Assembly: GCA_026414305.1 (NCBI GenBank)
Contig: JAOAJH010000001.1
Location: 62,001-126,000 of the forward strand
From: Candidatus Aenigmatarchaeota archaeon
Lineage (GTDB): Archaea; Aenigmatarchaeota; Aenigmatarchaeia; CG10238-14
Length of the DNA stretch: 64,000 nucleotides
Direction: 5' to 3'
The notes beneath the pieces are model-generated. The model ran no database searches and was not told the origin of the DNA. It was given only the letters and a program-made list of their open reading frames with translations. The translations under genes were made by a program, and so were the position numbers. Below are positions 18,402-62,242 of this stretch, piece by piece; position 1 is the first letter of the stretch; every line of letters begins with the position of its first letter.

Positions 18402-19001
18402 ATGAAGTTCATATTCTTGATTTTGCTTTTTTTGAATGTTGTTTCAGCCCAAACAACAGATTATGTTAATGCTGTCATAGTGCCTGGAATTGTTTTGCTA
18501 GTTTTCGCTTATGGATTGATTTCATTTTTCAAGTTACCGAAAATTGCTTCTCTTGTTTTATCTGTAGCCCTAATCGGAGTTGCCTATGTTTCAGGAATAA
18601 TAAACGCATTTGCTAGTATGGCCCTTTCATTTGGCGGTTTGGCATCGACAGGTTTGTACATAGGCTTGTTTTTGGTAGGCGCAACTTTAGCTTCAAGATC
18701 AGCAGGCGGCAAACCCAAAAAAGCAGTTAAATATGCTGATGCAAGAAAAATGAGTAGAAAGCAGATATCCCAAGAAATGAATTCCATAGAAAAAAGAATT
18801 GTACAGTTGCAATCAAAACTAGAGTCGGTTAAAATACAAGAGCATAACCTAGAGCTCAAGTTTTCAACTTCAAAATCTCCAGAGATTGCAAAAGAGCTTG
18901 AAAGAATAAGAAAAATAAAAAACGAGTTGTCAGATGCAATGGACATGATGATCGAAAGAAAGGAATACTACAAAAAAGCTTACAGGGAGGCTACTGCGTA
19001 A
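18402..19001 (+). CDS. membrane protein with cytoplasmic coiled-coil, unknown function
   Basis: Three hydrophobic segments then a long charged helical region. Confidence 0.6.
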   Translation: MKFIFLILLFLNVVSAQTTDYVNAVIVPGIVLLVFAYGLISFFKLPKIASLVLSVALIGVAYVSGIINAFASMALSFGGLASTGLYIGLFLVGATLASRSAGGKPKKAVKYADARKMSRKQISQEMNSIEKRIVQLQSKLESVKIQEHNLELKFSTSKSPEIAKELERIRKIKNELSDAMDMMIERKEYYKKAYREATA

Positions 19002-19296
19002 ACACTGTATTGTATTTTGCCCTTGTCCAAAATCTGCTTATGATTATTAAAATGATCAAAGCACCAAACAGTATTACAAGTCCAAACGTGCCTAAAGATA
19101 ATATTTTATTGATTATCAAATATCCGTTTGTAAGGAAGACATAAAGGCAGATTATTAAAGAAACCAAAACATTTACGCTTTTTGGAAAAAATTTCATTCG
19201 TTGAAGAATATCATACAAAAGCACAAATAGTATTATGAACGACAGACCAAAAACAAAAATAGTTTCGCTGTTCAACAAAGATTGAAGCTGCTGCAT
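18991..19296 (-). CDS. small three-TM membrane protein, unknown function
   Basis: Hydrophobic 101 aa; 6 nt downstream of the next gene in the same direction. Confidence 0.6.
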   Translation of the reverse strand: MQQLQSLLNSETIFVFGLSFIILFVLLYDILQRMKFFPKSVNVLVSLIICLYVFLTNGYLIINKILSLGTFGLVILFGALIILIIISRFWTRAKYNTVFTQ

Positions 19297-19302
19297 AAAA
19301 GA

Positions 19303-20277
19303 CTACCTTTTCAGCAGAGTGATAAGTTCATTTATTTTTTGCTCAGCTTCTTGCGGATTTGTCTGCAACTTGTTTTTTGCTTCTGCTATCAAGGACTTCC
19401 ATTGCATGTTTGACGCATAGTGCTCCATTGTGTCTAGCAAGTCCAAAGCATGGTCAAAATCACCATTTTTTATCATGATTTTTACGTCTCTCGCATAATT
19501 TTTCATAAGAAGCTTGTTTTGTGCAGAGCTTCTTACGATTCCCATGGCATGCTCTATTGGTCTCCATTTTTCAAAGACCCTATGTATGTATGCCAATAAA
19601 CCACCTAAAAATATCAAGTCCAAAGCAACCAATGCAATACCCAAAGTGCCTATGCTTAGCATCTCAAGTAGGTTTGTCACCACAAATCCCCTGTATGCTA
19701 TCAAACCTAAGCAATAGCCAACTATCTTTTGAGATTTCGGTTGTTGTATCACACCAGAGGACCTTACAAAATCATAGAACAGTGTCATTAAAAGCAGCAG
19801 CGGTATAACGACGCCAAATACCCAGTAGCTCACAAACGCAAAACCACCATAGTTACCTTTGTATTTGTATCCAGTGATCACACACATTAGACCTTCTGCT
19901 ATGTTATTCATTCCTCCTGTGCTGCATTTAACTGTCATTGGTGTTGTCAAAGCTTCCTTAGATTTCATAACATATGACATTTGTATTATCAGGAACCCTA
20001 TTATTATCACACCCAAGCCTATGTAAGAAAGAGTTTTGCCTGTTCTCAAGTGGCTGCCTGCTATTATTATTCCAAAAAGTATCAGAAATGCGCCTATGAA
20101 TATTAGCAATATAGATGTTATTGTGTTTGACAGATTGTTTATAAGAGAGTCGAGAAAACCAGGTATGGCTAATGCAGCCACGACAAGAATAGAAATAATA
20201 ATGAAAATGAGGAAAAACACTGAAATCCAGTCAGCACCTTTTGAACCAAAAACCATACTATTATATTCTAAATTCAT
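19303..20277 (-). CDS. polytopic membrane protein, tandem paralog family (copy 1)
   Basis: Core FGVVIPLLLLMTLFYDFVRSSGVIQQPKSQKIVGYCLGLIAYRGFVVTNLLEML..., shared with the next three genes. Confidence 0.75.
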   Translation of the reverse strand: MNLEYNSMVFGSKGADWISVFFLIFIIISILVVAALAIPGFLDSLINNLSNTITSILLIFIGAFLILFGIIIAGSHLRTGKTLSYIGLGVIIIGFLIIQMSYVMKSKEALTTPMTVKCSTGGMNNIAEGLMCVITGYKYKGNYGGFAFVSYWVFGVVIPLLLLMTLFYDFVRSSGVIQQPKSQKIVGYCLGLIAYRGFVVTNLLEMLSIGTLGIALVALDLIFLGGLLAYIHRVFEKWRPIEHAMGIVRSSAQNKLLMKNYARDVKIMIKNGDFDHALDLLDTMEHYASNMQWKSLIAEAKNKLQTNPQEAEQKINELITLLKR

Positions 20278-20288
20278 ACTATTATTTT

Positions 20289-21257
20289 TTAGCTTATTTC
20301 TGCAATCATGGCATTTATTGTTTTTATCGCGTCATTTTTGTTTTTCGCGAGATTTAACTCTTCAACAAGCGGTATGAATTTTTCTGATTTGCCTTTGGCT
20401 TCTAGCAATGTTTTAAGATCTTCTCTTATTCCTTCACCAAAAACCTCATTTATTTGATGAAGCGGAAGATCTTTCAGTTTTTCAAGCGCTAGTCTTACTG
20501 AAGCTTCAAGCTCGTGTGTTTTTTCTTTTGGCTTTTCTACATATGAAAAATATTTTGGTATTTTTTTGACAACAGAAGAAAACAGCCAAAGATTGGCTAA
20601 AATAAGCAAAACTCCTACAAGGCCTGTTGTCAGTAAATTTATCAAACCTGTTATTATGAAAAATCTGTAAGCAATAAGCGCAAACCCTAATGATATTATT
20701 TCTATGTAAAAGTGGTTTCCTATGACTCCAGATTTTTCAATGAAGTCTTCGAAAACATGATAAAGAATTATCAACGGAATGACGAAGCCGTATAACCAGA
20801 AGCCGTATATTATTAATACTGTTTCTACAAGAGACGATTGTTTTGTTGGCATGTAGCCTGTTGTCAAGCAGCTTATATTTTCCAAAATGCCTTTTGGGTT
20901 TTTGCATTCAAGCCAAAAATTTTTCAAACTGAAAATTCCAGATGACAATTTGATTATTTGTATCTGTTGATTTATCATTGATATAAACAGTAAAAAAAGG
21001 CAGACATACATCAAAATTGCGAAGATTTTGTTATAATGCGGAAAGAAGTTAGACAAGAGCAAAATGCTAAAAATACCTAGCACTGACAAACCTGAAATTA
21101 TATATGAAAACATGAACAGTATAGCTATGGTCTTTTCAAAATTCATATTTGACAGATAAAGGAAGACAATTGAAAAAAGCAGAACTATCATAAAAAATGG
21201 AAATATTATTTGAAGAAATTCTATCAAAGTTCTTTTTATTTGCTTGAAAACAGACAT
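20289..21257 (-). CDS. polytopic membrane protein, tandem paralog family (copy 2, most divergent)
   Basis: FWLYGFVIPLIILYHVFEDFIEKSGVIGN...LIAYRFFIITGLINLLTTGLVG. Confidence 0.7.
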   Translation of the reverse strand: MSVFKQIKRTLIEFLQIIFPFFMIVLLFSIVFLYLSNMNFEKTIAILFMFSYIISGLSVLGIFSILLLSNFFPHYNKIFAILMYVCLFLLFISMINQQIQIIKLSSGIFSLKNFWLECKNPKGILENISCLTTGYMPTKQSSLVETVLIIYGFWLYGFVIPLIILYHVFEDFIEKSGVIGNHFYIEIISLGFALIAYRFFIITGLINLLTTGLVGVLLILANLWLFSSVVKKIPKYFSYVEKPKEKTHELEASVRLALEKLKDLPLHQINEVFGEGIREDLKTLLEAKGKSEKFIPLVEELNLAKNKNDAIKTINAMIAEIS

Positions 21258-21290
21258 TATTTAATAAAATGATTTTGTTAATTTTAATCA

Positions 21291-22253
21291 TTATGTTTGT
21301 GTTCTAATTTCTTTAATAATTTCTGCTTTAATTCTTTCCATTTCATTCTTGGTCGTCGCACTTAAAGCCTTACCAAATATTTTTTTGGCTTCTACTTCAC
21401 CCAGTATAAAAATTAAAGCACCTTTGAAACCTTCATCATTAATTGTAGTTTTAAACTGTTGTAAATCATTTACTTTTTCTAAAGAATTTAAGACCATTAA
21501 ACGAAATTTATCAGAGACTTGCCCCAAAAAAATTTCATTTTCTACAAGTTGCCATTGTCGGAAAACCCTTCTTACATAAGATAGAACACCACCAATGAAT
21601 ATGAAATTCAATGCTATAACGGCCATTCCTGTAGCACCTACATCGAGGATATATATCAGATTTGTTACAATAAACCCTCTGTATGCAAGAAAACCCAAAC
21701 CAAAACCTATTATCTTTTGATATGTTGGATTTTGAACAACACCGGATGATTCAACAAAATCAGCCATTAAGGCAACTAGTATAAACAAGGGCACTAGAAA
21801 ACTAAATACGAAAAAACCACCAATAGATAATGCATTAGATTTTTCAGATCCTGTAATCTTATGACCAGTTAATAAACATGAAAAAATTTCATCCAAATCT
21901 GAATTAGAAAAGCTTAAATCTTTACAATAAGCAAAACTTGTACCCCTATTTGTAACTGTTTTTTGAATTATATAAACTTCCATAAAAATTAATGCAAACA
22001 TCACAAGCCCAACACCAAAATAAGCCACAATTTTACCTATTTTTGGATTGTATGGCGCTATTAACATGCCTATAAAGATAGCTGTGCTCGATGAAAATAA
22101 AATAATAAAACCAGAGGAAGAGATAAATGCAATATTATCAATAGTACTAGTAAAACCACTTAACAAAATAGCAGCTATAATTACGACTAGAAAGATAACT
22201 GCAAGAATAATTAAATAATTTGTCAATGCTGACGTTATTTTATTTCTAGCCAT
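21291..22253 (-). CDS. polytopic membrane protein, tandem paralog family (copy 3)
   Basis: FLVPLFILVALMADFVESSGVVQNPTYQKIIGFGLGFLAYRGFIVTNLIYIL. Confidence 0.75.
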   Translation of the reverse strand: MARNKITSALTNYLIILAVIFLVVIIAAILLSGFTSTIDNIAFISSSGFIILFSSSTAIFIGMLIAPYNPKIGKIVAYFGVGLVMFALIFMEVYIIQKTVTNRGTSFAYCKDLSFSNSDLDEIFSCLLTGHKITGSEKSNALSIGGFFVFSFLVPLFILVALMADFVESSGVVQNPTYQKIIGFGLGFLAYRGFIVTNLIYILDVGATGMAVIALNFIFIGGVLSYVRRVFRQWQLVENEIFLGQVSDKFRLMVLNSLEKVNDLQQFKTTINDEGFKGALIFILGEVEAKKIFGKALSATTKNEMERIKAEIIKEIRTQT

Positions 22254-22286
22254 AAAATTTCAACCTATATAACTATTATAGTACAT

Positions 22287-23318
22287 TTATTTCATCTCCT
22301 TTAGTATTTTTTCCAAATCGTTTGCAAATTGATTTGGATTTGATTGATTTTTTGTTCTAGATGATTGTATTTTTAACCAACCTTGTTTGCTTGCAGTTGA
22401 AATATCAGCTTCAAATGGACTAAGAAGAGTATTATAAACATCATTTACTGAAGAACCTGATCTACATTGTTTTATTGCTTGCTCTAAAATTCTTTTTGAA
22501 TTAACTCTTGCTATTTGAATGCTTTTTCCAAACTCCATTGCATTTTCTATTGGTTTCCATTGACTAAAAATCCTGTTTGTGTATGAGAGCAAACCACCAA
22601 TGAATATGAAATTCAATGCTATAACGGCCATTCCTGCAGCTGCAAAGTCAAGTATGAATACAAGCCCTGTTACAATAAACCCTCTGTATGCAAGAAAACC
22701 TAAAGACCATCCTATCAGTCTTTGACTCATTCTGTTTTTAACAACCACAGAACTTTCAACAAGATCCAAAAAAATACCGCTTGTCAAAAGCAGTGGTATG
22801 ACAACACCAAATATCCAAAATCCCAAAATGTAAAAGCTGCTGCTTCCTTGCGGTGTATATCCTGATATTATGCAGGCAAGACTGTCACTCATGCTTTGAA
22901 TATTTTTGCCTTCACCAACAGGTATCAGTACAGGTATGTTTTTACAATATTCAAAATTGGAATTTTTTTCTGCTGCTTCTATAATGTTTTCTATAAGGTT
23001 CCCGCTTGGCTTGACGCCAGAATTTCTCAAAGTTGTGATTGTAGCCACACCGACTTCAATGAATATAAGCGATAGCAAAACACCAGCTATTCCTATGTAT
23101 GCCATATTTTTTCCAATTTTTGGATTGGAATACGCAATTATTACACCTAGAATGAGAACACCACCTGAAAACAAAAGAAGAACCAAAGGAATTATTCCGT
23201 TTACAAATACGAACTCCAATATGCTAGGACCTGTTGTTGTGATGGCTACTATACCAAGCGGAATTATAACAGCGGCAAGAATTATAAGAGAAATAATCCA
23301 TACGTCTGACATTGACAT
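22287..23318 (-). CDS. polytopic membrane protein, tandem paralog family (copy 4)
   Basis: FWIFGVVIPLLLTSGIFLDLVESSVVVKNRMSQRLIGWSLGFLAYRGFIVTGLVFIL. Confidence 0.75.
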   Translation of the reverse strand: MSMSDVWIISLIILAAVIIPLGIVAITTTGPSILEFVFVNGIIPLVLLLFSGGVLILGVIIAYSNPKIGKNMAYIGIAGVLLSLIFIEVGVATITTLRNSGVKPSGNLIENIIEAAEKNSNFEYCKNIPVLIPVGEGKNIQSMSDSLACIISGYTPQGSSSFYILGFWIFGVVIPLLLTSGIFLDLVESSVVVKNRMSQRLIGWSLGFLAYRGFIVTGLVFILDFAAAGMAVIALNFIFIGGLLSYTNRIFSQWKPIENAMEFGKSIQIARVNSKRILEQAIKQCRSGSSVNDVYNTLLSPFEADISTASKQGWLKIQSSRTKNQSNPNQFANDLEKILKEMK

Positions 23319-27511: not shown

Positions 27512-29371
27512 ATGGATTTAAAGTGGATTTTAGTTTTAGCGGTTTTCTTGGCTTTTATACCTGAGATATATGCGTGGTGTTGTGAATATACTAATGCATG
27601 CGATAGTAGATCAAACGTATATTGTGGTGGTACCGTTAGAAGTGTTTTAACATGTTGTTCTGACGGTACATGTAAAACGTCATGTCAACAGAATTGTATT
27701 TATTATTGTGAAAAAGCGACCACAACAACAAGAACATCAACATCAACAACATCAACAACAAGAACATCATCAACAACATCAACAACAAGAACATCAACAA
27801 CCACAAGAACATCAACAACAAGAACATCAACAACCACACCAAGAACATCAACAACAATTTCATGTGGTTCTATAACCAATCAAAATATTTGTACAAGCCG
27901 ATCAGATTGTCAATGGATTGGTACACAAAATGCAGGTTTTTGTCAAGATCGTTTGCAGACTACAAGACAGTCATCACCAACCCAACCTCAACCACCAATC
28001 ACAACAACAACCCAACCATGCCCAAGAATAGTTACATGCGATGGCGTTGAAGTAGATTTGTGCTCAAACAGAGAAAATTGCGGTGAATGCGAAACTGAGT
28101 GTGAAGGCTCCATAGATGGTGGGTATTGCTGTTCGCAAGGCAAATGCACAGATAATTCAGGCTCAAGTTGTGGATATAGACCACCTTCAACCCAACCATC
28201 ACCTTCATCAAATAAAAAAACATACAATTTTAAGATTCAGGTTGTATGTGATAACAGTAAAGTTCCATCAGGAAACTTTTCACCATTTTATAGAATGTTA
28301 ACAGATCTTACTGTAACTTATGCCAGAAATGTTAGATTTGATATGTCTAAACAAAACACATATCAGCTTAATGCAAGTTCAAATGATGATCTACTTTTTG
28401 GCATTAACACATCAACCGCAAGAATCAATTTCATTTCACTGTCACCATATGGAACACCACCAGAAAACGTTTCTTATTTTCAAACGATAGAAGGCATCCA
28501 GTCCGGTCATGTGATTGTTAGTAAAGTAGCTCCAAACAACAGTGTTTTTGAAATAACATTCAAAGCGCCTGGTATGAATTGTGAAGGGGCTGCTACAGTA
28601 ACAGGAACAGCTATAACATCAACAACCACATTATCAGGTTCAACAACTCAAACAACACCGACAACAACTATACGAACTCCATCTACAACAACAACTTTGC
28701 CACCAAACATGGTTCCATTCAAAGTATTATTGAAAGGGGACTATGATCAGGCAATGGAATATTCAACTATTTATTTAAATGGAAAAAATATTGGGGATGC
28801 ATGCAAGGAATGCAGCAAAACATGTAAAGATTCACAAGAATATTCACAAGGTTTGATGGAAAGCATAGACATAAACGAATACTGTTCTGATGGATTTATT
28901 GATGTAAAGTTTGTCGACACTTCAACAGTTGATGATTTTTGCAATTCTCTTCACAAAGCATGTATAGAAATAGATGGAAAAGAATATTGCTGTGAGAAAG
29001 AATGCGACATGTATGGGTGTGAAAATCATGTTTCTTTTGAATGCGACAGGTTTACTTGTGTTGAGCTTTCGGGTTTGATAATTAAAGACTTTTATTGCAA
29101 AGAAAAGTCTTGTGGTTTCAGAATAAAAAGAAACATACTAGAAAAAAACACAAGCTATGTCATTTCAGCATTCAATGAAACAAATGGAAAAATATATTAT
29201 TCGTTTACAGGATCATTTGGGCCAAAATCAACAGGTCAAATATTTAGGCCTTTGAATGTTTATGCTACATGCCAAAAAGACACAGAGTTGTCTGTTATAT
29301 TGACTGTTTTCGACAACAACAACAACAATTTGCTTTATGCTGAAAAATTAAACAGGGGATTTAAATGTTGA
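27512..29371 (+). CDS. secreted Thr-rich, Cys-rich protein with STIG1-like module
   Basis: Signal peptide, (T/S/R) low-complexity linkers, module CPRIVTCDGVEVDLCSNRENCGECETECEGSIDGGYCCSQGKC. Confidence 0.8.
   Translation: MDLKWILVLAVFLAFIPEIYAWCCEYTNACDSRSNVYCGGTVRSVLTCCSDGTCKTSCQQNCIYYCEKATTTTRTSTSTTSTTRTSSTTSTTRTSTTTRTSTTRTSTTTPRTSTTISCGSITNQNICTSRSDCQWIGTQNAGFCQDRLQTTRQSSPTQPQPPITTTTQPCPRIVTCDGVEVDLCSNRENCGECETECEGSIDGGYCCSQGKCTDNSGSSCGYRPPSTQPSPSSNKKTYNFKIQVVCDNSKVPSGNFSPFYRMLTDLTVTYARNVRFDMSKQNTYQLNASSNDDLLFGINTSTARINFISLSPYGTPPENVSYFQTIEGIQSGHVIVSKVAPNNSVFEITFKAPGMNCEGAATVTGTAITSTTTLSGSTTQTTPTTTIRTPSTTTTLPPNMVPFKVLLKGDYDQAMEYSTIYLNGKNIGDACKECSKTCKDSQEYSQGLMESIDINEYCSDGFIDVKFVDTSTVDDFCNSLHKACIEIDGKEYCCEKECDMYGCENHVSFECDRFTCVELSGLIIKDFYCKEKSCGFRIKRNILEKNTSYVISAFNETNGKIYYSFTGSFGPKSTGQIFRPLNVYATCQKDTELSVILTVFDNNNNNLLYAEKLNRGFKC
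27720..27860 (+). repeat. low-complexity ACA/ACC-rich tract encoding (T,S,R) repeats
   Basis: Imperfect tandem units of acaacaagaacatcaac read directly. Confidence 0.85.
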
Positions 29372-30225
29372 GAAAATTGGTTATGCTGGCAATGCTTTTA
29401 GTTGTTTTACATGATGTTAGTGCAATATCCATAGAAACGTGCAGGTCAGGAAGTGTAAATAATGTTTGCTTTTTAGAGGAAGAATGCAAGTGCTATTTGG
29501 ACACAATGTGTGATGACGGAAATTTAGTTTTATACAAGCAATCAATATTAAATCCGATATGCTACCCTAGAATTGAAGGGCAGCAATCAAAAATAGATTG
29601 GAAAGCATGCAACTTTACAGGTACAAACATAACAGTTTCAGCAATATGTGGAAATGAAGTTTCAAACTCAATCAATTTACTTGTTTTGCCAACACCAACT
29701 GAGTGCATATACAACTCAACATCAAGACAGTGTATAGATAATCCAAATCCACTGGCAGATGATTGCCCAGAAGGTTCTGCTTGCGCTCTTTACAACAATG
29801 CTTGCGTTTGCAGAACATTAAGAAACACAACAGCTAACACAACGACGAACGCAACATCTAATCAGACTTTGAGTCAAACAACAACACAAACAACAAATGC
29901 AAACTCAACTCAAACAACTATTTATGTTCTTGAAGAATATTCGACTACCACTACCACTACCAAAACAAAAGCAGCATGCCCTTATGAATGTTGCGAAGGA
30001 ATGAGCAAATATCAAGACAATCTGTGTGAAGATGGTTATGTATGTTGTCCTACGAAAGATGAAGAATACAAATGCATTCAGGGCAACACATGCATGCAAA
30101 AGAAGGCATCTTCATCATCAGGTTGGATCATTGTCTTAATAATTCTGCTTGCTGCTGTTGGCGTGGGCGCATACTTTTACTTGAAAAAAACCAAAGTCAA
30201 CTTGATGGACAAATACAAACTTTAA
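29365..30225 (+). CDS. secreted Cys/Thr-rich protein with C-terminal TM anchor
   Basis: N-terminal signal peptide, N/T-rich linker, Cys-rich domain, C-terminal GWIIVLIILLAAVGVGAYFYLKK. Confidence 0.75.
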   Translation: MLRKLVMLAMLLVVLHDVSAISIETCRSGSVNNVCFLEEECKCYLDTMCDDGNLVLYKQSILNPICYPRIEGQQSKIDWKACNFTGTNITVSAICGNEVSNSINLLVLPTPTECIYNSTSRQCIDNPNPLADDCPEGSACALYNNACVCRTLRNTTANTTTNATSNQTLSQTTTQTTNANSTQTTIYVLEEYSTTTTTTKTKAACPYECCEGMSKYQDNLCEDGYVCCPTKDEEYKCIQGNTCMQKKASSSSGWIIVLIILLAAVGVGAYFYLKKTKVNLMDKYKL

Positions 30226-38266: not shown

Positions 38267-38980
38267 ATGAAAAATTTGTTTATAGTTTTATTAATTGCTG
38301 TAGCATCGATTTTTATTTTATATTTTATTTTACCAAAGAATTATACTGGTTTTCAGGTAAGTGTTTTAGATAGAGTAAGAAGTATTCTATATTCATTTTT
38401 TGAACCAAGGAATAATAATATATACACAAACACAACACCAACCTATCCATGTCCAAGATTAGTTACATGCAATGGCGTTCAAGTAGATTTGTGCTCAAAC
38501 AGAGAAAATTGCGGTGTATGCGGAAATGAATGTGAAGGCCCCATAGACGGTGGGTATTGCTGTTCGCAAGGCAGATGCACAGATAATACAGGTTCAAGTT
38601 GTGGATATAGACTTCCCAACATCACAACACCAACCACAACAAGATTCAACATCACAACACCAACCACAACAAGATTCAACATCACAACACCAACCACAAC
38701 AAGATTCAACATCACAACACCAACCACAACAAGAACAACAATAATATCTATAACTCCGACAACAACATCGGACATTGAATGCAATTCTATGTGTTTATCA
38801 AGAGGCTATGATTTTGGTAGGTGTGAATATTATGGTATTTGCCCAGGAATTACAATAGGACAATGTACTATCACAAATGATTGTTGTTGTATTAGATGTA
38901 GTTCATTTACTGATAGATTTACATGCAATTCATTTATAGAATGTGTTTGGGTATCTTATAGGTGTGTGCCTGCTATTTAA
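38267..38980 (+). CDS. secreted Cys-rich protein with STIG1-like module and TTPTTTRFNI repeats
   Basis: N-terminal hydrophobic segment; CPRLVTCNGVQVDLCSNRENCGVCGNECEGPIDGGYCCSQGRC; 10-aa tandem repeats. Confidence 0.75.
   Translation: MKNLFIVLLIAVASIFILYFILPKNYTGFQVSVLDRVRSILYSFFEPRNNNIYTNTTPTYPCPRLVTCNGVQVDLCSNRENCGVCGNECEGPIDGGYCCSQGRCTDNTGSSCGYRLPNITTPTTTRFNITTPTTTRFNITTPTTTRFNITTPTTTRTTIISITPTTTSDIECNSMCLSRGYDFGRCEYYGICPGITIGQCTITNDCCCIRCSSFTDRFTCNSFIECVWVSYRCVPAI
38620..38730 (+). repeat. 30-bp tandem repeat (atcacaacaccaaccacaacaagattcaac, about 3.7 copies)
   Basis: Exact repeated units read in sequence. Confidence 0.9.
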
Positions 38981-45387: not shown

Positions 45388-47052
45388 TTTCAATCCTACC
45401 CTAGTCCGACTCTAACTCCCATCAACAGCGTAAACTTTTCATTAGACTCAGACCTTCCTGTTTCAATCCTACCCTAGTCCGACTCTAACTATAATCATAA
45501 TTTTTTTCAATTTTTCAAGCATAATTTTCAAGGTTTCAATCCTACCCTAGTCCGACTCTAACGAGAAGATAGGTTGCTTGTGTTTCAATTTGATTTTTTT
45601 AATGTTTCAATCCTACCCTAGTCCGACTCTAACTAATCTTGACTTGTTTGACTTTTTTAAGAGCAGGGGGGTTTCAATCCTACCCTAGTCCGACTCTAAC
45701 TGCTTTTCATAGCACTAGGATTGTTTGGAGGTATTGGTTTAGTTTCAATCCTACCCTAGTCCGACTCTAACTTAGGTTTCGATGAAGTAGATGTAATTCA
45801 AGTCGATCTTGAGTTTCAATCCTACCCTAGTCCGACTCTAACTACCTGAAAACAGGCAAGAAATAATAGAAGTGCTCAGGAAAGTTTCAATCCTACCCTA
45901 GTCCGACTCTAACTAAAAGGTGAAAAAATGAGTAAAAAAGGCGATTGGTTATTAATGTTTCAATCCTACCCTAGTCCGACTCTAACCCTGAGGGGACACC
46001 CCTCAGGCTTAAAGAAGTCCGACAAAAAGTGTTTCAATCCTACCCTAGTCCGACTCTAACGTAATGAAAATTTTCGGGAAAGATTTTAAAAAATCGGGAG
46101 AAAGTTTCAATCCTACCCTAGTCCGACTCTAACTTGCTAAATTAGGTTATAAACACAAAACATTTAGGTTAGGTTTCAATCCTACCCTAGTCCGACTCTA
46201 ACTGTGGCAAGAAAGCAGATAGATGAAAAATTTGATGAATGCAAGTTTCAATCCTACCCTAGTCCGACTCTAACAAGTGCCAGTAAGTTGGGATACACAG
46301 GGATTAGTAGTAAAAGTTTCAATCCTACCCTAGTCCGACTCTAACCCATTAATTCTGCCTCTTCAAGTGTTATATCTCTTGTTTGTATAGTTTCAATCCT
46401 ACCCTAGTCCGACTCTAACCAAGAATATACAAGCAGAAAAAAAGGAAGGCATTCATTCTGTTTCAATCCTACCCTAGTCCGACTCTAACAAAAATCTGCT
46501 TCAGGTGAATTCGGTTTTTCTGATTTGATGTTTCAATCCTACCCTAGTCCGACTCTAACATAGGTATGGCGTTTGAGGATTTTATAAAGAAGATAGTTGA
46601 AAGTTTCAATCCTACCCTAGTCCGACTCTAACAAGACATTCCTAAATAGTGACAATATATTAGGTTTCTTCAGTTTCAATCCTACCCTAGTCCGACTCTA
46701 ACTATGGAAGGTCTTGGACACTTCAAGATTTGTATGTGTAGTTTCAATCCTACCCTAGTCCGACTCTAACAAAAATTATAAAATATAATATGGGGTGGAT
46801 GGCAATGATGTTTCAATCCTACCCTAGTCCGACTCTAACTTGTAAAGATGTGAGTAAAGTCGTTATCGGCAAGACAAGTTTCAATCCTACCCTAGTCCGA
46901 CTCTAACTGGTAGAGATAGTTAATAAAACACCCCACGATGTAGTTCTTTTCGGTTTCAATCCTACCCTAGTCCGACTCTAACCATAATAAAGATATTAGT
47001 TTTGTTGAATATACAAAATTATGTTTCAATCCTACCCTAGTCCGACTCTAAC
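45318..47052 (-). CRISPR. CRISPR array: 24 identical 30-bp repeats plus 1 degenerate terminal repeat, 24 spacers (about 39-45 nt)
   Basis: + strand unit GTTTCAATCCTACCCTAGTCCGACTCTAAC; reverse complement ends in ATTGAAAC, the usual 8-nt crRNA 5' handle, so transcription is on the minus strand. First perfect repeat 45387-45416, last 47023-47052; degenerate repeat 45318-45347. Confidence 0.97.
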
Positions 47053-47157
47053 ACGCTTTAAAAAGTTAATAAATGAACAACAAAAGCATTATTTTTCTGT
47101 TATATAATCTTCTTTCTGTCAATAAAAAATTAGATCCTCGCTTATAAACATCGACAC
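47053..47157 (-). promoter_or_regulatory. probable CRISPR leader
   Basis: AT-rich gap between cas2 and the array, with TATA-like GATTATATAAC on the minus strand about 50 nt upstream of the first repeat; opposite end carries the degenerate repeat. Confidence 0.65.
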
Positions 47158-47427
47158 TCATATTATGTTTTCATCAGAATTCTTTTTTACACCTATAATT
47201 TTCTTTTTTAAAAGATCGTCAAATTTTAAAAAATAAATTATTACAGAGTCTTTATTTTTATCTATAATAGATTCCAAACCCCTTTCTATTTCGGATATTT
47301 GAGATTCAGTTATGTCTCCTTCAAAAACAGAGTTTTGTACCCAAACAAGATATTGCCTAAGAAAGTTGCAAACTTTTGATTTTTTTTCAGAAACATCGTA
47401 AACAACCAGTGTATGCAAATTTACCAC
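47158..47427 (-). CDS. cas2: Cas2 (GTG start)
   Basis: VVNLHTLVVYDVSEKKSKVCNFLRQYLVWVQNSVFEGDITESQISEIERGL. Confidence 0.92.
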   Translation of the reverse strand: MVNLHTLVVYDVSEKKSKVCNFLRQYLVWVQNSVFEGDITESQISEIERGLESIIDKNKDSVIIYFLKFDDLLKKKIIGVKKNSDENII

Positions 47428-48416
47428 CCCGATACATAAGGTTCGTATGTCTTCAAACCATGAAAATGCTTTATTAATTTGTAGCATTCCATCAAAAGCA
47501 GGTTTTTATATGAAATTTTTTTGTTATTAATTTTTATAGTCTTGTTTATTTTATCTTCAAAATTTTCAATAAAAACTTTTCTTCCGTTTTCATTAAGATA
47601 AACAATATCATTTTTTATATTGAAATGATGATTTTTGATTATATCTTTCCTTATTATTTTTAATATAACTCTATCAACGATTAATGGTTTAAAAACTTCA
47701 CTTATATCCAAAGATAAAGAAAATCTATTTACTATAGGTTCATGGAGATAACTTACAGATTGATCTAATGGTGTTTTGTATATTTGTTTTATCAGAATAG
47801 AATAAAGCAAGCAATTACCAAAACTTATTAAACAATTTATCTTATCTTTTGGTGGATTTTTTGTTCTAGTAAAAAATTTAAATTCTTCAGGAAGTATTTT
47901 GTTAAATATTTTATAGTATTCATTTCTTATATTTCCTTCAATAGCCATCAAACTATTAATTTTATTTTCAAACTTTATTTTTTCAGCACTTTCTTTTATA
48001 AAAACCAATTCTCTTTCAAAGTCATAACCTCTTCTGTTATAATATTCCAAGTTTCTTATCATGTTTTGAAACCCACCGTATAGAAACTTTTTGGCCAAAA
48101 CTAGTCTTTTGTTTTTATCGATGAAATGCTCACATTGTTTTATCAAAAGAGTTCCATTAGAATTGCTTTTTCTTGATTGAAAACTTCCTTTTAAAAAACC
48201 ATACTTAGAAATGAAGTTTATACAAATAGTTCTTTTAGATATTAATGATATAACTCCAGATGATAAACTAACCGCACCTATACAATTTATAAGATCTATG
48301 TTATTTATTGGAATTATTTTTTCTACTTTTTCTGTTTTATCTATTTTTAGTATGCTGATGTTATTTTTTCTTCTTTTAATTACTCCGTTGCCATTTATAT
48401 AATAAATTTTTACCAT
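47421..48416 (-). CDS. cas1: Cas1 integrase
   Basis: Conserved active-site contexts MAIEGNIRNEYY, VSYLHEP, SLDISEVFKPLIVDR. Confidence 0.95.
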   Translation of the reverse strand: MVKIYYINGNGVIKRRKNNISILKIDKTEKVEKIIPINNIDLINCIGAVSLSSGVISLISKRTICINFISKYGFLKGSFQSRKSNSNGTLLIKQCEHFIDKNKRLVLAKKFLYGGFQNMIRNLEYYNRRGYDFERELVFIKESAEKIKFENKINSLMAIEGNIRNEYYKIFNKILPEEFKFFTRTKNPPKDKINCLISFGNCLLYSILIKQIYKTPLDQSVSYLHEPIVNRFSLSLDISEVFKPLIVDRVILKIIRKDIIKNHHFNIKNDIVYLNENGRKVFIENFEDKINKTIKINNKKISYKNLLLMECYKLIKHFHGLKTYEPYVSGW

Positions 48417-48454
48417 TTAATAATCAAAAAAATAAAAACTTAAAAATCTTTCTA

Positions 48455-49816
48455 TTATATAGAAATATTAATTTTTAAGCTGACAACATCTTTGTATTTT
48501 TCATACTCACTATCAAAATATTCCTTTAGAATTTTTTCAAATTCCTTGCCAAAAATTTCTAACAATTCTCTCAATTTTTTAACTTCATACTTATTTTCAA
48601 ATCCGCCATGTATGAGCTTGTTCATGTTTCTAAAATACACAAGTTTCCTGATAATCTCTGAATTTTTCTTAAAAAAATGATCCAATTTTTTGTGATTCAA
48701 GGTATATATTATGGCTAACATTTCTTTCAAATATATCATAGAATTTTTCATTATTTTTTCTGCATCTTCTATTTCAATTTTTTTCTCGTTAAAAGCAGAA
48801 TTTGCATAGTTTTTTATTATATCATTATACTTATTACCGAAAACTTCAAAATTTTTAGTGTCTTTTGAAAAACCATAGTCATTTTCCAGAACATATTCTA
48901 TGAATTTTTCAAATGATCTAAACAGAAGTATTATTGCTTCATTGTTTTTACCAATATTATGTTTTCTTTTGTAATTTTCAAATAAATCAAAAATAAAAAA
49001 TATTTTTCTTATTTTAATATCATTTGATGAAAGTATGTTTATTTTTTTGTTAACATTTTCTTTAAGTTTATTATCACTTTTTATTTTTTTCTCGGTCTTT
49101 TTCAATATTTCTAATGATGTTTCGTAATCAAGTTCATCCCAAAACATAAAAGCTCTTGAAATACTTTCAAAAACTTCGGCTTTTGCAGAAATTTCATAAT
49201 TATCAATATTCTTGCCAAAACTGAAATTCAATATAGCTTCATTAAAAATACCTTTGTTAAAGTTTTCAATACCTTTTTGTATATACATTTTGTAGAAAGT
49301 ATTTATTTTGTCAAAATTAAATTCAACTTCTTCCATTTCATCGTAATTACATAGAGTGCCTTTTTTCGATCTTTCCGCTTTAACAAAAAATATTCTTAGT
49401 TTCCTTTTTCTATCACTAAAATAATATGAAAAAACTTCAAGTGAACAAAATATAGACATGAATTTAGTACCATTTGTTATATTGTATACTATTTCCAAAT
49501 TATAATCCAACCCGTCTATAATTTTTGATATTTTATTTCTTATATCGTTCTCATCGAACTCGTTTACTTTTACAAGTTCAAAATCAGAAAATCTACTCCA
49601 TTTTTTCTTTATTATTTCTGCATAAGGTTTTGTTTTTTCACTATGAATTAAAAAAACTTTTTTTGGGTACTTCTTTTTTTCAACTATTATTTTATGAAGC
49701 ATAAAGCTAACAGACTCGTTTATTTTTGTTTTTTCATTTTCTAAAAAATTGCTTATTTTTTCTTCATTTATCCCTTCGAAATCACCTATATTTGCTAAAT
49801 ATACATACTCCTCCAT
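48455..49816 (-). CDS. csm6: Csm6-like/Cas02710-type CARF-HEPN ribonuclease
   Basis: CARF-like NITNGTKFMSI motif and C-terminal HEPN RNMNKLIHG (R-X6-H); located in csm operon. Confidence 0.8.
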   Translation of the reverse strand: MEEYVYLANIGDFEGINEEKISNFLENEKTKINESVSFMLHKIIVEKKKYPKKVFLIHSEKTKPYAEIIKKKWSRFSDFELVKVNEFDENDIRNKISKIIDGLDYNLEIVYNITNGTKFMSIFCSLEVFSYYFSDRKRKLRIFFVKAERSKKGTLCNYDEMEEVEFNFDKINTFYKMYIQKGIENFNKGIFNEAILNFSFGKNIDNYEISAKAEVFESISRAFMFWDELDYETSLEILKKTEKKIKSDNKLKENVNKKINILSSNDIKIRKIFFIFDLFENYKRKHNIGKNNEAIILLFRSFEKFIEYVLENDYGFSKDTKNFEVFGNKYNDIIKNYANSAFNEKKIEIEDAEKIMKNSMIYLKEMLAIIYTLNHKKLDHFFKKNSEIIRKLVYFRNMNKLIHGGFENKYEVKKLRELLEIFGKEFEKILKEYFDSEYEKYKDVVSLKINISI

Positions 49817-50764
49817 TCAATTCACCAAATCCAATTTAACCCAACCTAAAGGAACTTCATTTGAAGAAACAAAAGTTTTTGGGAATGGTGTATAAGTATG
49901 CCCTTTGATTAAATATTTCCTTTCTTTAAATCTTAGTTTTACTAAGTCTGGATCATTAATTTCGTAAAAAACACCTAAACTTTTTGTATAAAAACCACCA
50001 CCAAAACCTATATGTAAAAACAAAGATTTTTTAATATTATTTTTAACATTTTTTAATATATTTTTCAAATTTTTATTAAATACATCATATTTATAACTTT
50101 TTTTAATCATATATTCTAGTGCCATTATGTAGAAATTGTTTATTTTGTAAATAAAATTTTCTATATCGTAACTATTGTCAATTTTTATTTTCAATTCCAA
50201 ATTTTTGAATGAAATAACTTCTCTGTTTTCAAGTTTTGCTTCTTTCCCCATACCAAGCCTTTTAATTCTTTTAATTTGACTTTCAAAATCTCCTTCTATA
50301 TCTGATATTTCTATATTTTTAGTTTTGTTGAAATTGTATATTTTTTCTCTGATTTCTTTATCTGTATTATAAATTATATCACCATAAAATGGTTTTCTCA
50401 TAGCACCCTTAATAGAGCTTCCAGGTATATAAATTCTTCCATTAGAATGTCTTATAAATGTAAAGACTTCTGATGTTATATCCCCATCTGCTTTAATTCT
50501 GTACTTCAAAAAATTCATTATATCATCTTTTTTAATATTAAATTCTTTAATTATGCCTTCAATACCAGAACTAAAATTTTTTTCAAATTTTAAAATGAAC
50601 TCTCCAAGATACCTTTGTTTTGGTATTAAAAAATCTATAATTTTTCCCAAATCAAAAATATGTAAATAATCGTCAATTTTCATATATTCAAGTTTATTAA
50701 AACTTTCACCGCTGCTTATATGTATTGGTGTAATCGAATTCATCAAAAATTTAATTTTCATCAT
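49817..50764 (-). CDS. csm5: Csm5 (type III-A RAMP)
   Basis: TPIHISSGESFNKLEYM...RIYIPGSSIKGAMRKPFY; order in operon. Confidence 0.88.
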   Translation of the reverse strand: MMKIKFLMNSITPIHISSGESFNKLEYMKIDDYLHIFDLGKIIDFLIPKQRYLGEFILKFEKNFSSGIEGIIKEFNIKKDDIMNFLKYRIKADGDITSEVFTFIRHSNGRIYIPGSSIKGAMRKPFYGDIIYNTDKEIREKIYNFNKTKNIEISDIEGDFESQIKRIKRLGMGKEAKLENREVISFKNLELKIKIDNSYDIENFIYKINNFYIMALEYMIKKSYKYDVFNKNLKNILKNVKNNIKKSLFLHIGFGGGFYTKSLGVFYEINDPDLVKLRFKERKYLIKGHTYTPFPKTFVSSNEVPLGWVKLDLVN

Positions 50765-51677
50765 CAATCACCACGGGTATTGTGAATGCCTTTCCGAACC
50801 TGTATATTACTTTTTCATTTAATTTTTCCTCTCTTATTTCACCTTTTACATTTCCTTTAAATAAAGAACCTTCAGACAAACCTATTATATTGGATTTTCT
50901 TTTAGAGTCAAAATAAACCCAGCCCTTTCTTTCTATTAGCTTGTATGAATGCAGTTTTCCATAATCATCTTTTGACGGAAAAACTACTGATAAATTTACA
51001 TAGTTTGAAGAATTTTGGTTCATATCATTAAAACCATCAAAATCTTCTATTTCAATTCTTTCTATTTGACCAGCACCATTGCTTATTTCACCACCTATAC
51101 CAAAATTTTTTATCATATATATACTATCTTTTAAATCATCACTCAACTCACCGTCAATAATAAAAAAGAAGAATACATCATTTTCCAATCTAATATAAGA
51201 AACGCTATATAACTTTCCTTCTTCTGCCAAAGATGTTGTTTTGTCTATACTTACCTTTTCTTCAACATCTTCATAAAACAATTTTATGTCATCGCCCTCA
51301 TTATCTAAATAAATAAGTGATTTTGAGTTGTTTGTTTTTATTGCACTGCTATTTTTTATTGCACCTAAACTAACCATTTTTATTTTTTTACGTATTTTTC
51401 TATCAGATTTTAACTTTTCCGGCAGTTTAAAATTTAGATAAAAAGGGAAAAATAGAACATCCTTACCATTTGATTTTATACCGTAAAACAATGATGTTAT
51501 TTTTGGAAAATTCCTAACAAAATAGTCAATATTGCTTTCTCCACATTTTCTTATATGATTTATAACTAAACAAGAAAAAAGACTGTCACTATGGAATATA
51601 TAGTCATTTATATCTAATCCTAGGTAACCGAAATGAAATTTAGCATTTTTGTGCGGATACAATTTTACTATTTTCAT
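50751..51677 (-). CDS. csm4: Csm4 (type III-A RAMP)
   Basis: KFHFGYLG...HSDSLFSCLV, SNGAGQIE; order in operon. Confidence 0.88.
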   Translation of the reverse strand: MKIVKLYPHKNAKFHFGYLGLDINDYIFHSDSLFSCLVINHIRKCGESNIDYFVRNFPKITSLFYGIKSNGKDVLFFPFYLNFKLPEKLKSDRKIRKKIKMVSLGAIKNSSAIKTNNSKSLIYLDNEGDDIKLFYEDVEEKVSIDKTTSLAEEGKLYSVSYIRLENDVFFFFIIDGELSDDLKDSIYMIKNFGIGGEISNGAGQIERIEIEDFDGFNDMNQNSSNYVNLSVVFPSKDDYGKLHSYKLIERKGWVYFDSKRKSNIIGLSEGSLFKGNVKGEIREEKLNEKVIYRFGKAFTIPVVIDDEN

Positions 51678-52276
51678 TTATTTACCTTTTTTTCTAAATC
51701 TTCAATAATTTCGCTTACATCAACTTTCCCATAACCTCTTGAACCGCTGCCACCCAAGTAGTTTTCCTGAAGTAATTCGAAACCCTCTTTTACCAAATTT
51801 ATTATTTCTCTTTTGTTATCTTTGTCAAATATGTTGAAAACTATCTCTTCGTTAAATTCTGTACCAGGAACAACTCTTTCAACTAATCTTGGTTTTGCTA
51901 CACCCATTTTGTCTATAGTGTTTTCAGGTTTTATTTCAAACACATTTTGATTACTGTTTTCTATGAAGGCATCTCTAAAAATAACACGTGTTGACATTTC
52001 CTCGTTATTTTTTTCTTCTTCTTTCTTTGACAAACCCTTTCCAAATACCTTATCTATTAGTTCTAACATTTTATGATCTGATTCGTGTTTTTTTGTTAAA
52101 AGATATCTAATTTTACCTTTTATGCTACTTCCTGGTATGTAAGGCTCCTTATCTCCATTTATTTTTATTACTGGATTGTCAACCCCACCTATTTTAAACG
52201 ATTCTTTTATTCCGCCTATGTGCAATCCAGTAACAACTTTAATTCTACCATTAACTTTTACTATTTCTTTCAACAT
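51674..52276 (-). CDS. csm3: Csm3 (backbone RAMP nuclease)
   Basis: GLHIGGIKESFKIGGVDNPVIKINGDKEPYIPGSSIKGKIRYLL, GGSGSRGYGKV; catalytic Asp context IGGxD. Confidence 0.93.
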   Translation of the reverse strand: MLKEIVKVNGRIKVVTGLHIGGIKESFKIGGVDNPVIKINGDKEPYIPGSSIKGKIRYLLTKKHESDHKMLELIDKVFGKGLSKKEEEKNNEEMSTRVIFRDAFIENSNQNVFEIKPENTIDKMGVAKPRLVERVVPGTEFNEEIVFNIFDKDNKREIINLVKEGFELLQENYLGGSGSRGYGKVDVSEIIEDLEKKVNK

Positions 52277-52280
52277 TTAA

Positions 52281-52670
52281 TCAACCTCCATAGTAAGCTA
52301 ATAATCCTTCAAAAAATTTTCTAAATCTCTCGTAATTTGATTTTTTTGGGTTGTCCATAATATGTTCCAAAAGTCTCATTGTTTGTCTTGAAAATCTATT
52401 ATCAATTACTTTTCTATTTTCGGCATATTTTAACATAATCATGAGTTTTGCTACATGTGATTTTATTTTATTTTGATCTTCAAGGTTATCTTCTTTTATG
52501 TTGCATATTTCATCATAGAACTTTCTTATCTGACTTTTTGTACTATTGCCTAATTTGTTTTTTAGACTTTCCAGATGTTCTATGAATTCCTTTGGATCCT
52601 CTGAATCAAATATAATTCTCTTGTCAAAAAACAATTCATTCTGATTTTGGTACTTATTCTGATTATCCAT
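52281..52670 (-). CDS. csm2: Csm2 (small subunit)
   Basis: Small helical protein between csm3 and cas10; KSQIRKFYDEI...AKLMIMLKYAENR. Confidence 0.85.
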   Translation of the reverse strand: MDNQNKYQNQNELFFDKRIIFDSEDPKEFIEHLESLKNKLGNSTKSQIRKFYDEICNIKEDNLEDQNKIKSHVAKLMIMLKYAENRKVIDNRFSRQTMRLLEHIMDNPKKSNYERFRKFFEGLLAYYGG

Positions 52671-55074
52671 TCATTTCACCTCTATATCTTTTATTCATTT
52701 CAGCCAGCTCTGCTGCTAGCTTGAAACACCTTATTTTAAATAACATTTCGTTATATCCTTCTTCTGTAAGTGAATTTGAAAATATACATTTTTTCCATAT
52801 TGTGAAGATTTTTTCAGAAACATTAGGTGCATTTCTTTTCAACATATAATTCATTATATATATATTTGGTATTATTTTTTCTTTTTCTTTTATATTTTTT
52901 TCAATGAAATCTAATGTTTTAGAAGATATTTCTATAAGTTTGTGTAATGTGACTGATGAAATGCTTTTTTCGTTTATCTTTTTATTAAGATAATTAGTTA
53001 ATCTTACAAGAAATTCAAAATCATTTTTCATTTTATTTTCATCAACATCTGTCAATGCATCTGAAAAGAAACCTTTTTCAAAATTATCAAAATATTCCCA
53101 TCTTATTATATTCCCATTTATGGAAATGCAATTTTTTTCTCTTCTAGCAGATTTAGCTTCTTTTAAATCATTCTCCATTATTTCGAATATTTTTTTTATA
53201 GGAAAGCTTGTATCGAAAATTCTAAAAGACGCTGATATTGTGAATTTTGGATTAAATCCAGTATAAATTTTGAAATAATTATATATGTCATTAGCAAAGT
53301 TTAGTACACTTGCAAAATCACCCACTAAAAAACCATCATCACCACCAGAGTATAAAATATAAACACTATCTTTGTATTTTTCTTCCCAAATTCTATTTAT
53401 TATACCCTCAAAGAAAAGACTTATATTAAAACTCAATGAAGAATACATAGAGAAACTTATTTTATATCTACCCTCCTTAGCAAAATTCGTTTTAAATATA
53501 TCACCTAAATTGTCTACATCAAATTTTAATACACCCATTTTTTTTGATTTACAAATTTCACTTAACTCTAGAATAGTGTTATTTTTTATAGGCATCCCAG
53601 TTGTTATTATTTCGAATGGAGAATATGGGGTCAAGCTTATTTTACCGTTGAAAAACAGTTCGTCAACATCATCAAAAATAAATATTTCTTTTCTTTCTAA
53701 TTTGGGAAAATTAAAATTTTCTTGAGCTTTTTTTAACATATTTTTTATATATTGTATTTGATTACATGATTCACATAGAGAAAATTCATCATCACTTTCT
53801 TCTATTTCTGATTTACAAACATCACATGAGTCATATCCAGCATATTCTGCTTGAAAGTTTTTTTCAATTAAAATTTTTTCAAATTTTCTATGTTTGTCCT
53901 GTAAAATTCCTGTATTTTTTTGTAGTCTATTATAAAAGTTTCTAAAATCTTCTGTAAAATCTCTAGGAGACATTTCTGTATATGTTAATCCAAAAAACAA
54001 TTTTGTTCTGAACATTTTAAATAAAGAGTCATTAATTTTTTCAAAAAGGTTTTTTGCTATTTGCTTGTTTCTTTCATTGTTATCACATATTATTTCAAAT
54101 GAACCCCCACTGCAATATATTAGGTTAGTTTCTGGCAAATCTAACTCTAAAAGTAGTTTTTGTGCAGCTATTTTATTAAGCAAATTTATGTAGAATGACC
54201 TTGCTTTTAGAAACTTTGCAGCTCCTTTTGTTGAGATCGTTGAAATAAAATCTTGTATGCCAGATATATCTCCCTTTAAAATGAGAATAGATTTTTTGTT
54301 ATATTCTTCATCATTTAACAGATCAATTGGTATTGGTTTTTCATCCTTTTTATACATGAATATTTCTCTCATTGTTTTTTTTAATTGAGCTAAATTTTGT
54401 TTTGAATTTTTATAGTATCTGTATATTACCAAAGACATTCCTGCAGATGATTTAGAATGATTAAATAAATCTATAGTTGGTTGAGAATAATATGATGCTG
54501 ATGGAATTCTGAATGCATATTTTTTTAAACAATCTAGAACGCATCTTATATAATATCTCCTTTTTTTTTCAAGATTTTTTGAATCTTCGTCATCGTCGAT
54601 GTTAATTCTGTTTATTAAAGACATTTCTCTTATGAAGCCATAATACAAATCTCTTTCAATAGTACCCATTTCATTTTGAACTATTTCATCCTTTTTAGGT
54701 TTTTCAAAAGAGATTGATTTTGGTTTGAATCTCACGTCGCTGTTAGAATCACAATAAATTTCAAATATAGATATTATAGGATCCTTTCTAACATCTTCTG
54801 ATGTAATTTCAGTTTTTTTATCTACATCTTCCCTTTCTTGCGATGTTATCCAGTCACCTAAATCAATATAATCTTTTATACCATCATCAAATATATCAAT
54901 AGTTATTTTATTTGTTTTGAATTTGCAATCCCTCTTTACTTTCAAAAAAAGTTCTTCATGGTTCACAATCCTTTCTTTAATTTTACATTCATCTAATGTA
55001 TGTGTTCTTTGATAGAATTTGCCAATATCATGTAAAAGAGAAGAAAGAACTATTGACAGTTCATGTTCATCCAA
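52663..55074 (-). CDS. cas10: Cas10/Csm1
   Basis: HD motif SSLLHDIGKFYQRTH, zinc-ribbon CDVCKSEI...CESC, palm GGDD (YILYSGGDDGFLVGD). Confidence 0.96.
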   Translation of the reverse strand: MDEHELSIVLSSLLHDIGKFYQRTHTLDECKIKERIVNHEELFLKVKRDCKFKTNKITIDIFDDGIKDYIDLGDWITSQEREDVDKKTEITSEDVRKDPIISIFEIYCDSNSDVRFKPKSISFEKPKKDEIVQNEMGTIERDLYYGFIREMSLINRINIDDDEDSKNLEKKRRYYIRCVLDCLKKYAFRIPSASYYSQPTIDLFNHSKSSAGMSLVIYRYYKNSKQNLAQLKKTMREIFMYKKDEKPIPIDLLNDEEYNKKSILILKGDISGIQDFISTISTKGAAKFLKARSFYINLLNKIAAQKLLLELDLPETNLIYCSGGSFEIICDNNERNKQIAKNLFEKINDSLFKMFRTKLFFGLTYTEMSPRDFTEDFRNFYNRLQKNTGILQDKHRKFEKILIEKNFQAEYAGYDSCDVCKSEIEESDDEFSLCESCNQIQYIKNMLKKAQENFNFPKLERKEIFIFDDVDELFFNGKISLTPYSPFEIITTGMPIKNNTILELSEICKSKKMGVLKFDVDNLGDIFKTNFAKEGRYKISFSMYSSLSFNISLFFEGIINRIWEEKYKDSVYILYSGGDDGFLVGDFASVLNFANDIYNYFKIYTGFNPKFTISASFRIFDTSFPIKKIFEIMENDLKEAKSARREKNCISINGNIIRWEYFDNFEKGFFSDALTDVDENKMKNDFEFLVRLTNYLNKKINEKSISSVTLHKLIEISSKTLDFIEKNIKEKEKIIPNIYIMNYMLKRNAPNVSEKIFTIWKKCIFSNSLTEEGYNEMLFKIRCFKLAAELAEMNKRYRGEMNG

Positions 55075-61930: not shown

Positions 61931-62242
61931 ATGGCTGAGAAAATAGGTGTATGTCCAACTTGTGGTTTGCCTTTAGATATATGTACATGCAAGGTAATAC
62001 AAAGAGAGGCAAGAAAAATCAAGGTTTACATGACAACAAGAAAGTTTGGCAAGCCAGTGACAATAGTTGATGGAGTTGACAACAAATCTGTCAAATCTGT
62101 TCTGAAAAGCTTGAAACAGAAGCTAGCATGCGGTGGTTCTTTCAAAGATGGAAAAATAGAGTTGCAGGGAAATCATGTACAGAAGACAAAGGAAATTTTG
62201 TTGTCTTTGGGTTTTGACAAAGAAATGCTTGAAGAAAACTAG
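61931..62242 (+). CDS. translation initiation factor aIF1 (SUI1)
   Basis: CPTCGLPLDICTCKVIQREARKIKVYMTTRKFGKPVTIVDGVD. Confidence 0.96.
   Translation: MAEKIGVCPTCGLPLDICTCKVIQREARKIKVYMTTRKFGKPVTIVDGVDNKSVKSVLKSLKQKLACGGSFKDGKIELQGNHVQKTKEILLSLGFDKEMLEEN

Follow-up and report, generated by a model that had tools for sequence, protein, structure and literature searches.

What membrane system is served by four tandem, related polytopic proteins of no recognised family in the genome of a small archaeon? The question is raised by a six-gene cluster in a 64,000-nucleotide stretch (positions 62,001 to 126,000 of contig JAOAJH010000001.1, assembly GCA_026414305.1; hereafter the window) of an Aenigmatarchaeota genome of 0.82 Mb and 95% completeness, whose source is a tiny, probably host-dependent archaeon. 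In order of transcription, the cluster comprises four paralogues, P1 (22287), P2 (21291), P3 (20289) and P4 (19303), followed by the small protein X (18991) and the convergent gene Y (18402). An original prediction made from the sequence alone described the paralogues as an orphan operon encoding a possible hetero-oligomeric complex. Profile comparison has since demonstrated that all six proteins carry one three-transmembrane (three-TM) module, a feature missed by that prediction. The module belongs to a phylum-wide superfamily encoded beside ATPase and TadC genes, and the cluster proteins are therefore not isolated orphans.

A shared three-TM module and its superfamily

The first weak matches of a paralogue profile (in genomes G012 and G017; E-values 0.003-0.006) fell on small polytopic proteins encoded beside a secretion ATPase and, possibly noise at first, proved to be true superfamily members. 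Iterated searches among the fetched open reading frames (ORFs) brought together, in a single superfamily, X and Y, proteins with five TM segments (5-TM proteins) and proteins with three TM segments plus a coiled-coil tail. In profile-profile comparison with a reference set of 16 signal-peptide/3-TM/coiled-coil proteins, P1-P4 combined with their homologues from f4, another family of the same order, scored 95.5% (E 1.6e-8) across 91 columns with a single one-residue gap, the f4 homologues alone scored 97.5% (E 7e-12), Y 97.5% and X 96-97%. Among the reversed-profile controls, the paralogue set scored 7.5%, Y 47% and, in one control, the f4 set 68%, the two higher values coming from short charged-tail matches outside the module, and TadC profiles used as a control gave nothing above 13%. 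X matched a profile built without itself or its close relatives at E 3e-9, and Y matched a held-out profile clearly only via its orthologue and the signal-peptide group. A 30-sequence profile detected the superfamily in 145 of the 156 genomes surveyed, all from this phylum, including every one of the 39 near-complete genomes, and a Pfam scan found no family that covers it.

Linkage of the superfamily to a pilus-like locus

The genome that contains the window has a pilus-like locus of its own on contig C12, encoding a 742-aa PF00437 ATPase, a 670-aa double PF00482 TadC, two 5-TM proteins, coiled-coil proteins of 126 and 226 aa, the latter with a weak match to nucleoporin Nup54 (E 0.02), and a series of class III pilin-like proteins with one TM segment each. 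Between two and six paralogous small membrane proteins of the superfamily are encoded beside the ATPase and TadC genes. The 5-TM members adjoin genes for a CpaF-type ATPase, a double TadC and coiled-coil proteins in 17 of the 17 genomes with sufficient contig (G000, G001, G003, G005, G007, G008, G009, G012, G014, G017, G018, G019, G020, G028, G036, G052 and G112), although in G018 and G014 the block consists of the ATPase and coiled-coil genes, with TadC located elsewhere. These loci were picked by superfamily matches and not by ATPase matches; seven further 5-TM loci stop at a contig end and lie outside the count of 17.

Two further observations concern the components of such loci. The two coiled-coil proteins beside the pilus ATPase (L052 6547-7227 and 6124-6504) are kept in pilus loci across the class, the longer having a helical N-terminal domain with a weak Nup54 match. 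Within the window, three consecutive one-TM proteins with class III pilin-like starts (e.g. MKGLNEFIALSIIILISMILITLS) are encoded at 409-1852 on the plus strand, far from the pilus ATPase locus.

Conservation and divergence of the cluster within the genus

All six ORFs were found intact at the predicted coordinates and on the predicted strands, with intergenic gaps of 33, 33, 11 and 6 nucleotides along P1-P2-P3-P4-X and an 11-nucleotide overlap of Y with the 3' end of X. The description of four tandem paralogues with one architecture was confirmed, P2-P4 being 24-31% identical to P1, and a genome-wide search revealed no further copies elsewhere in the genome. The same six genes occur in the same order in two relatives, G001 (L027) and G003 (L006), and in two fragments in a third, G002; the predicted conserved unit of four paralogues with X and Y thus stands, with gene order kept across the genus. 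In three genomes of the genus, P1-P4 fall into four groups of orthologues that follow one order, and in a tree of the four paralogues and three outgroup homologues each gene groups with its positional counterpart, indicating that the fourfold duplication predates the genus.

In comparison with G003, the genes flanking the cluster are mostly 88-99.6% identical at the amino-acid level, with synonymous divergence (dS) of about 0.3-1.0, whereas within the cluster the figures are lower, at 72-85% (Y, X and P4), 64% (P3), 61% (P1) and 48% (P2), with dS of 1.0-2.6. Positive selection was not accepted as the only cause of this low identity, since synonymous and nonsynonymous divergence are raised together, a pattern more suggestive of exchange or of old alleles than of selection by itself. 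Over its final 80-odd residues, P1 shares 80-90% identity with the more distant G001 but 25-41% with the nearer G003, and nucleotide identity in the tail follows the same pattern (up to 92% to G001 versus 39-59% to G003). Third-position identity to G001 is 70-93% in the tail compared with 41-57% elsewhere in the gene, and in the alignment the region of high identity begins just after the third core helix and ends at about the stop codon. The simplest reading is that the P1 tail is a cassette that was apparently exchanged between species, in this one case and one gene.

Homologues outside the genus and detached arrays

With a 15-sequence profile, the long form typified by the paralogues was found only in this genus, in four copies, and once each in three f4 genomes (G018, G020 and G023); other, low-scoring matches were not counted as full-length homologues. 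The G018 homologue is encoded on the same strand as the double TadC, 89 bp upstream of it, the G020 homologue between ribosomal protein genes and the G023 homologue among other genes. Scattered single-copy occurrence with no conserved neighbourhood, an outcome named in the original prediction as speaking against it, is half true of the three f4 homologues, but does not describe the genus. The G020 gene (L032 5168-6109) is itself of note as an insertion between the genes for ribosomal proteins L1 and L11.

Family f4 also has long relatives of 300-330 aa, encoded next to the pilus ATPase (in G018, G014 and G023), with their parts in the order signal peptide or first helix, two helices, loop, three-helix module and helical tail. 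In the G014 member the module is closely preceded by two Cys at a spacing of 14 residues, the arrangement found in P4, and a 323-aa protein encoded next to the G023 ATPase is matched by the paralogue profile at E 5e-7.

In the genomes G008 and G010, from sister genera, three to four tandem signal-peptide/3-TM/coiled-coil paralogues are encoded next to an smc gene, in arrays that include a divergently placed 89-92-aa 3-TM protein; the array in G011 is truncated, and G005 has three tandem copies elsewhere. A lone Y-like gene adjoins gatB in G010 and lies near gatB in G011, and Y in the window is placed likewise. These detached arrays suggest that the window cluster is this genus's version of a detached set. 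The arrays beside smc at L148 4156-7479 and L168 5048-7492 run parallel to the window cluster.

Searches against known families

The absence of a recognised family for these proteins was borne out by comparison with Pfam, NCBIfam, PHROG, PADLOC and the PDB. Scans of the cluster proteins against the first four databases yielded sub-threshold or coiled-coil matches and no family. The best Pfam match, DUF6057 (E 2.6e-4), was below the curated cut-off, not credible and taken as noise, as were a tetraspanin match and a match of P4, one of the four paralogues, to TrbC/VirB2 (PF04956; E 2, 9.1 bits against a cut-off of 27.9). A match of the paralogue profile to a TadC/FlaJ-like gene in G038 was dismissed as chance, and neither Pfam scan nor profile comparison found the TadC/FlaJ T2SSF domain (PF00482) in the paralogues. 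Matches to PADLOC defence families were weak and partial only, that of Y to LeoBC (E 2e-5) being largely coiled coil, and those to PHROG viral families were limited to two weak, partial cases (E 0.002-0.006). The two best matches in a PDB sequence search were designed TM proteins and the remainder were weak, with additional chance matches to G-protein-coupled receptors and coiled coils. The Foldseek comparison proposed with the original prediction, run with models of P4 and Y that are of low confidence, likewise gave no match to a characterised family, with no PDB match at E <= 0.001.

Anatomy of the paralogues

Judged by sequence, the paralogues are a variant of the superfamily that combines a pair of extracytoplasmic Cys with an invariant Arg in the membrane and cytoplasmic tails that vary. 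The alignment of 15 homologues has five invariant columns, namely the two loop Cys, a Gly closely following the second of these, the Arg, which sits in AYR, ALR or TFR within the second core helix, and one further Gly. Outside P1, the loop Cys are at residues 110 and 126 (P2), 118 and 130 (P3) and 118 and 132 (P4). The four Cys motifs originally listed (MCVITGYK, SCLTTGYM, SCLLTGHK and ACIISGYT) are all present, and the extracytoplasmic two-Cys loop and divergent helical tails were supported; the proposed hallmark core string holds for three of the four paralogues but not for P3, which reads AYRFF and is without the GGxLxY...W end. The charge pattern and the signal peptides of the superfamily suggest that the N terminus of the module is outside and that the tail lies inside; the Cys loop would then be outside, making a disulfide possible. 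A helical tail follows the module in the predicted models of both P4 and Y, and is absent from the shortest superfamily members; the model of Y consists of a signal helix, three helices and a helical hairpin with a predicted local distance difference test score (pLDDT) above 90.

Table 1. Coordinates in the window of the six cluster genes and of the parts of their products.
Feature	Coordinates	Strand	Description
P1	22287..23318	-	Paralogue, 343 aa: 2-3 N-terminal TM segments, two-Cys loop, three-TM module, cytoplasmic helical tail
P2	21291..22253	-	Paralogue, 320 aa; architecture as P1
P3	20289..21257	-	Paralogue, 322 aa; architecture as P1; most divergent of the four
P4	19303..20277	-	Paralogue, 324 aa; architecture as P1
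X	18991..19296	-	101-aa protein; bare three-TM module, nothing more
Y	18402..19001	+	199 aa: signal peptide, three-TM module, cytoplasmic helical-hairpin coiled coil; converges on X
P1 core module	22563..22829	-	Three-TM module, residues 164-252, with the invariant Arg of AYR (residue 212)
P2 core module	21558..21824	-	Three-TM module, residues 144-232
P3 core module	20544..20810	-	Three-TM module, residues 150-238
P4 core module	19570..19833	-	Three-TM module, residues 149-236
P1 two-Cys loop	22872..22946	-	Predicted extracytoplasmic loop, Cys 125 and 149
P1 tail	22287..22544	-	C-terminal tail, apparent exchange cassette

Possible roles of the cluster

The six proteins share their module with a family whose genes adjoin those for the ATPase and the platform, and are therefore likely to be additional membrane components of the same machine. 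The explanation preferred here, with moderate confidence, is that the cluster is a genus-specific satellite set encoding accessory hetero-oligomeric membrane subunits of a DPANN type IV pilus-like machine. It draws on the homology, the topology pattern, the genomic linkage of the superfamily, the lineage-specific fourfold expansion, the unusual divergence and the one apparent tail exchange. The machine would be built from the CpaF-type ATPase, the double TadC platform, the two coiled-coil proteins and many class III pilin-like proteins, with the three-TM modules forming a hetero-oligomer, packed against one another within the membrane and placed around the platform or next to it. The cytoplasmic helical tails might then touch the coiled-coil proteins or the ATPase, and the extra N-terminal helices of P1-P4, with a disulfide-stabilised outer loop, might touch the pilus base, the cell wall or a secreted substrate. 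That P1-P4 are four old, separately maintained groups is compatible with subunits of one complex, as in the hetero-oligomer originally proposed.

Several results weigh against a role in the pilus-like machine. In the genus itself, the cluster is on contig C10, by housekeeping genes and apart from the pilus locus (C12/C16), and only one of the three f4 homologues is beside TadC. P1-P4 alone match the 16-protein set more weakly (87%, E 4e-6), single paralogue sequences reach E 5e-4 or worse against a held-out profile, and the AlphaFold model of P4, built from eight sequences, is poor (pLDDT 64.5; predicted template modelling score 0.35). The detachment would suit an alternative in which the cluster, although kin to the pilus-linked family, has left the machine to form an independent hetero-oligomeric complex in this genus, such as a channel, secretion pore or surface receptor. 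In addition, the pilus locus of the genus retains other superfamily members, detached arrays of three to four paralogues plus a small 3-TM gene by smc occur in other genera of the same family, and the paralogues have acquired a membrane Arg and a Cys loop that most relatives lack. However, the homologue beside TadC in G018 and the long f4 relatives of the same architecture beside the ATPase argue against such a departure, and detached genes may still serve one machine, such that an independent complex is considered somewhat unlikely.

Convergence of hydrophobic proteins, with the paralogues being an unrelated transporter-like orphan family, would also account for the likeness among three-TM proteins, given that TM proteins inflate profile scores and that some 3-TM ORFs outside the family reach E-values of about 1e-3 with the superfamily profile. 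This appears very unlikely, as the alignment extends over the full module, never with more than a one-residue gap and in the same register in many sequences, reversed module profiles and TadC profiles do not match the module, and the neighbours X and Y match independently. The small size, hydrophobicity, multiple TM segments, tandem copies and, in several cases, signal peptides of the cluster proteins, along with the TrbC match in P4, are what would be expected of polymerising pilin-like blocks, either of the VirB2/TrbC type or of similar multi-TM pilins. That match is at noise level, however, the loci already hold many separate one-TM class III pilin-like proteins, and the tails are long, charged and predicted to be cytoplasmic, making pilin-like blocks extremely unlikely.

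DPANN archaea are thought to rely on contact with other cells, and the text of Hamm et al. 2024 describes a pilus-like locus encoding coiled-coil proteins as a candidate for that contact (PMC11291902). A bolder extension of the satellite-subunit explanation, put forward as speculation and judged unlikely as a whole, is that the undescribed three-TM superfamily forms a hetero-oligomeric membrane collar of a host-contact pilus-like machine, and that the fourfold, disulfide-looped and tail-recombining set of this genus is an exchangeable adaptor layer that chooses the partner, whether a coiled-coil protein, the ATPase or a secreted factor. Were the accessory-subunit role to hold, the machine would have a whole class of membrane subunits unmodelled in the databases searched, and the fast-evolving, apparently recombining set of this genus would be a natural experiment on subunit contacts.

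Other features of the window

By eye only, the region 45460-55834 (minus strand) contains clustered regularly interspaced short palindromic repeat (CRISPR)-like direct repeats at 71-nucleotide spacing (GTTTCAATCC...), then cas1-like genes and a type III effector-like set with a Cas10-like protein of 803 aa, at 25-27% guanine-plus-cytosine content. Two secreted Cys-rich proteins with hydrophobic segments (619 and 286 aa) encoded at 27512-30225 on the plus strand are candidate surface proteins, and a similar pair is retained in G001 (L027 807-2602). A perfect 30-nucleotide tandem repeat of 3.9 copies lies at 38617-38734 within a secreted-protein ORF.

Comparison with known systems

The cluster proteins resemble VirB2/TrbC (PF04956) in being small and hydrophobic with a signal peptide, and differ from it in that the match is at noise level and confined to one paralogue. 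With TadC/FlaJ (PF00482) the superfamily shares its polytopic nature and, probably, its place in the same machine, sometimes in adjacent genes, but TadC profiles show no sequence match to the paralogues. The archaeal type IV pili of Makarova et al. 2016 and the DPANN pilus islands (PMC4858521, PMC6393860) likewise combine a secretion ATPase, TadC and pilins, and the text of the latter source describes unrecognisable components of dark-matter islands that were suggested to be pilins (PMC6393860); the proteins described here are instead polytopic with predicted cytoplasmic tails rather than one-TM pilins, and no polytopic family of this kind was found in the portions of PMC4858521 and PMC6393860 compared.

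The closest parallel is provided by Hamm et al. 2024, whose text describes two conserved pilus-like loci (loci 1 and 2) in cluster 2 DPANN, Aenigmarchaeota included, with CpaF, TadC and coiled-coil proteins found via a putative nucleopore domain (PMC11291902). Given the weak Nup54 match of the 226-aa protein, the blocks described here very probably correspond to that locus. Both have a CpaF-type ATPase, TadC and one or two coiled-coil proteins, here beside 5-TM members of the superfamily, whereas the main text of that study makes no mention of multi-TM membrane proteins, and the four-paralogue cluster of the window differs from the loci it describes in being detached and genus-specific (PMC11291902). 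An orphan operon can thus be placed, on the profile matches and gene neighbourhoods, as a variant of an unmodelled, widespread family linked to a known machine, with a genus-specific expansion that is unusual.

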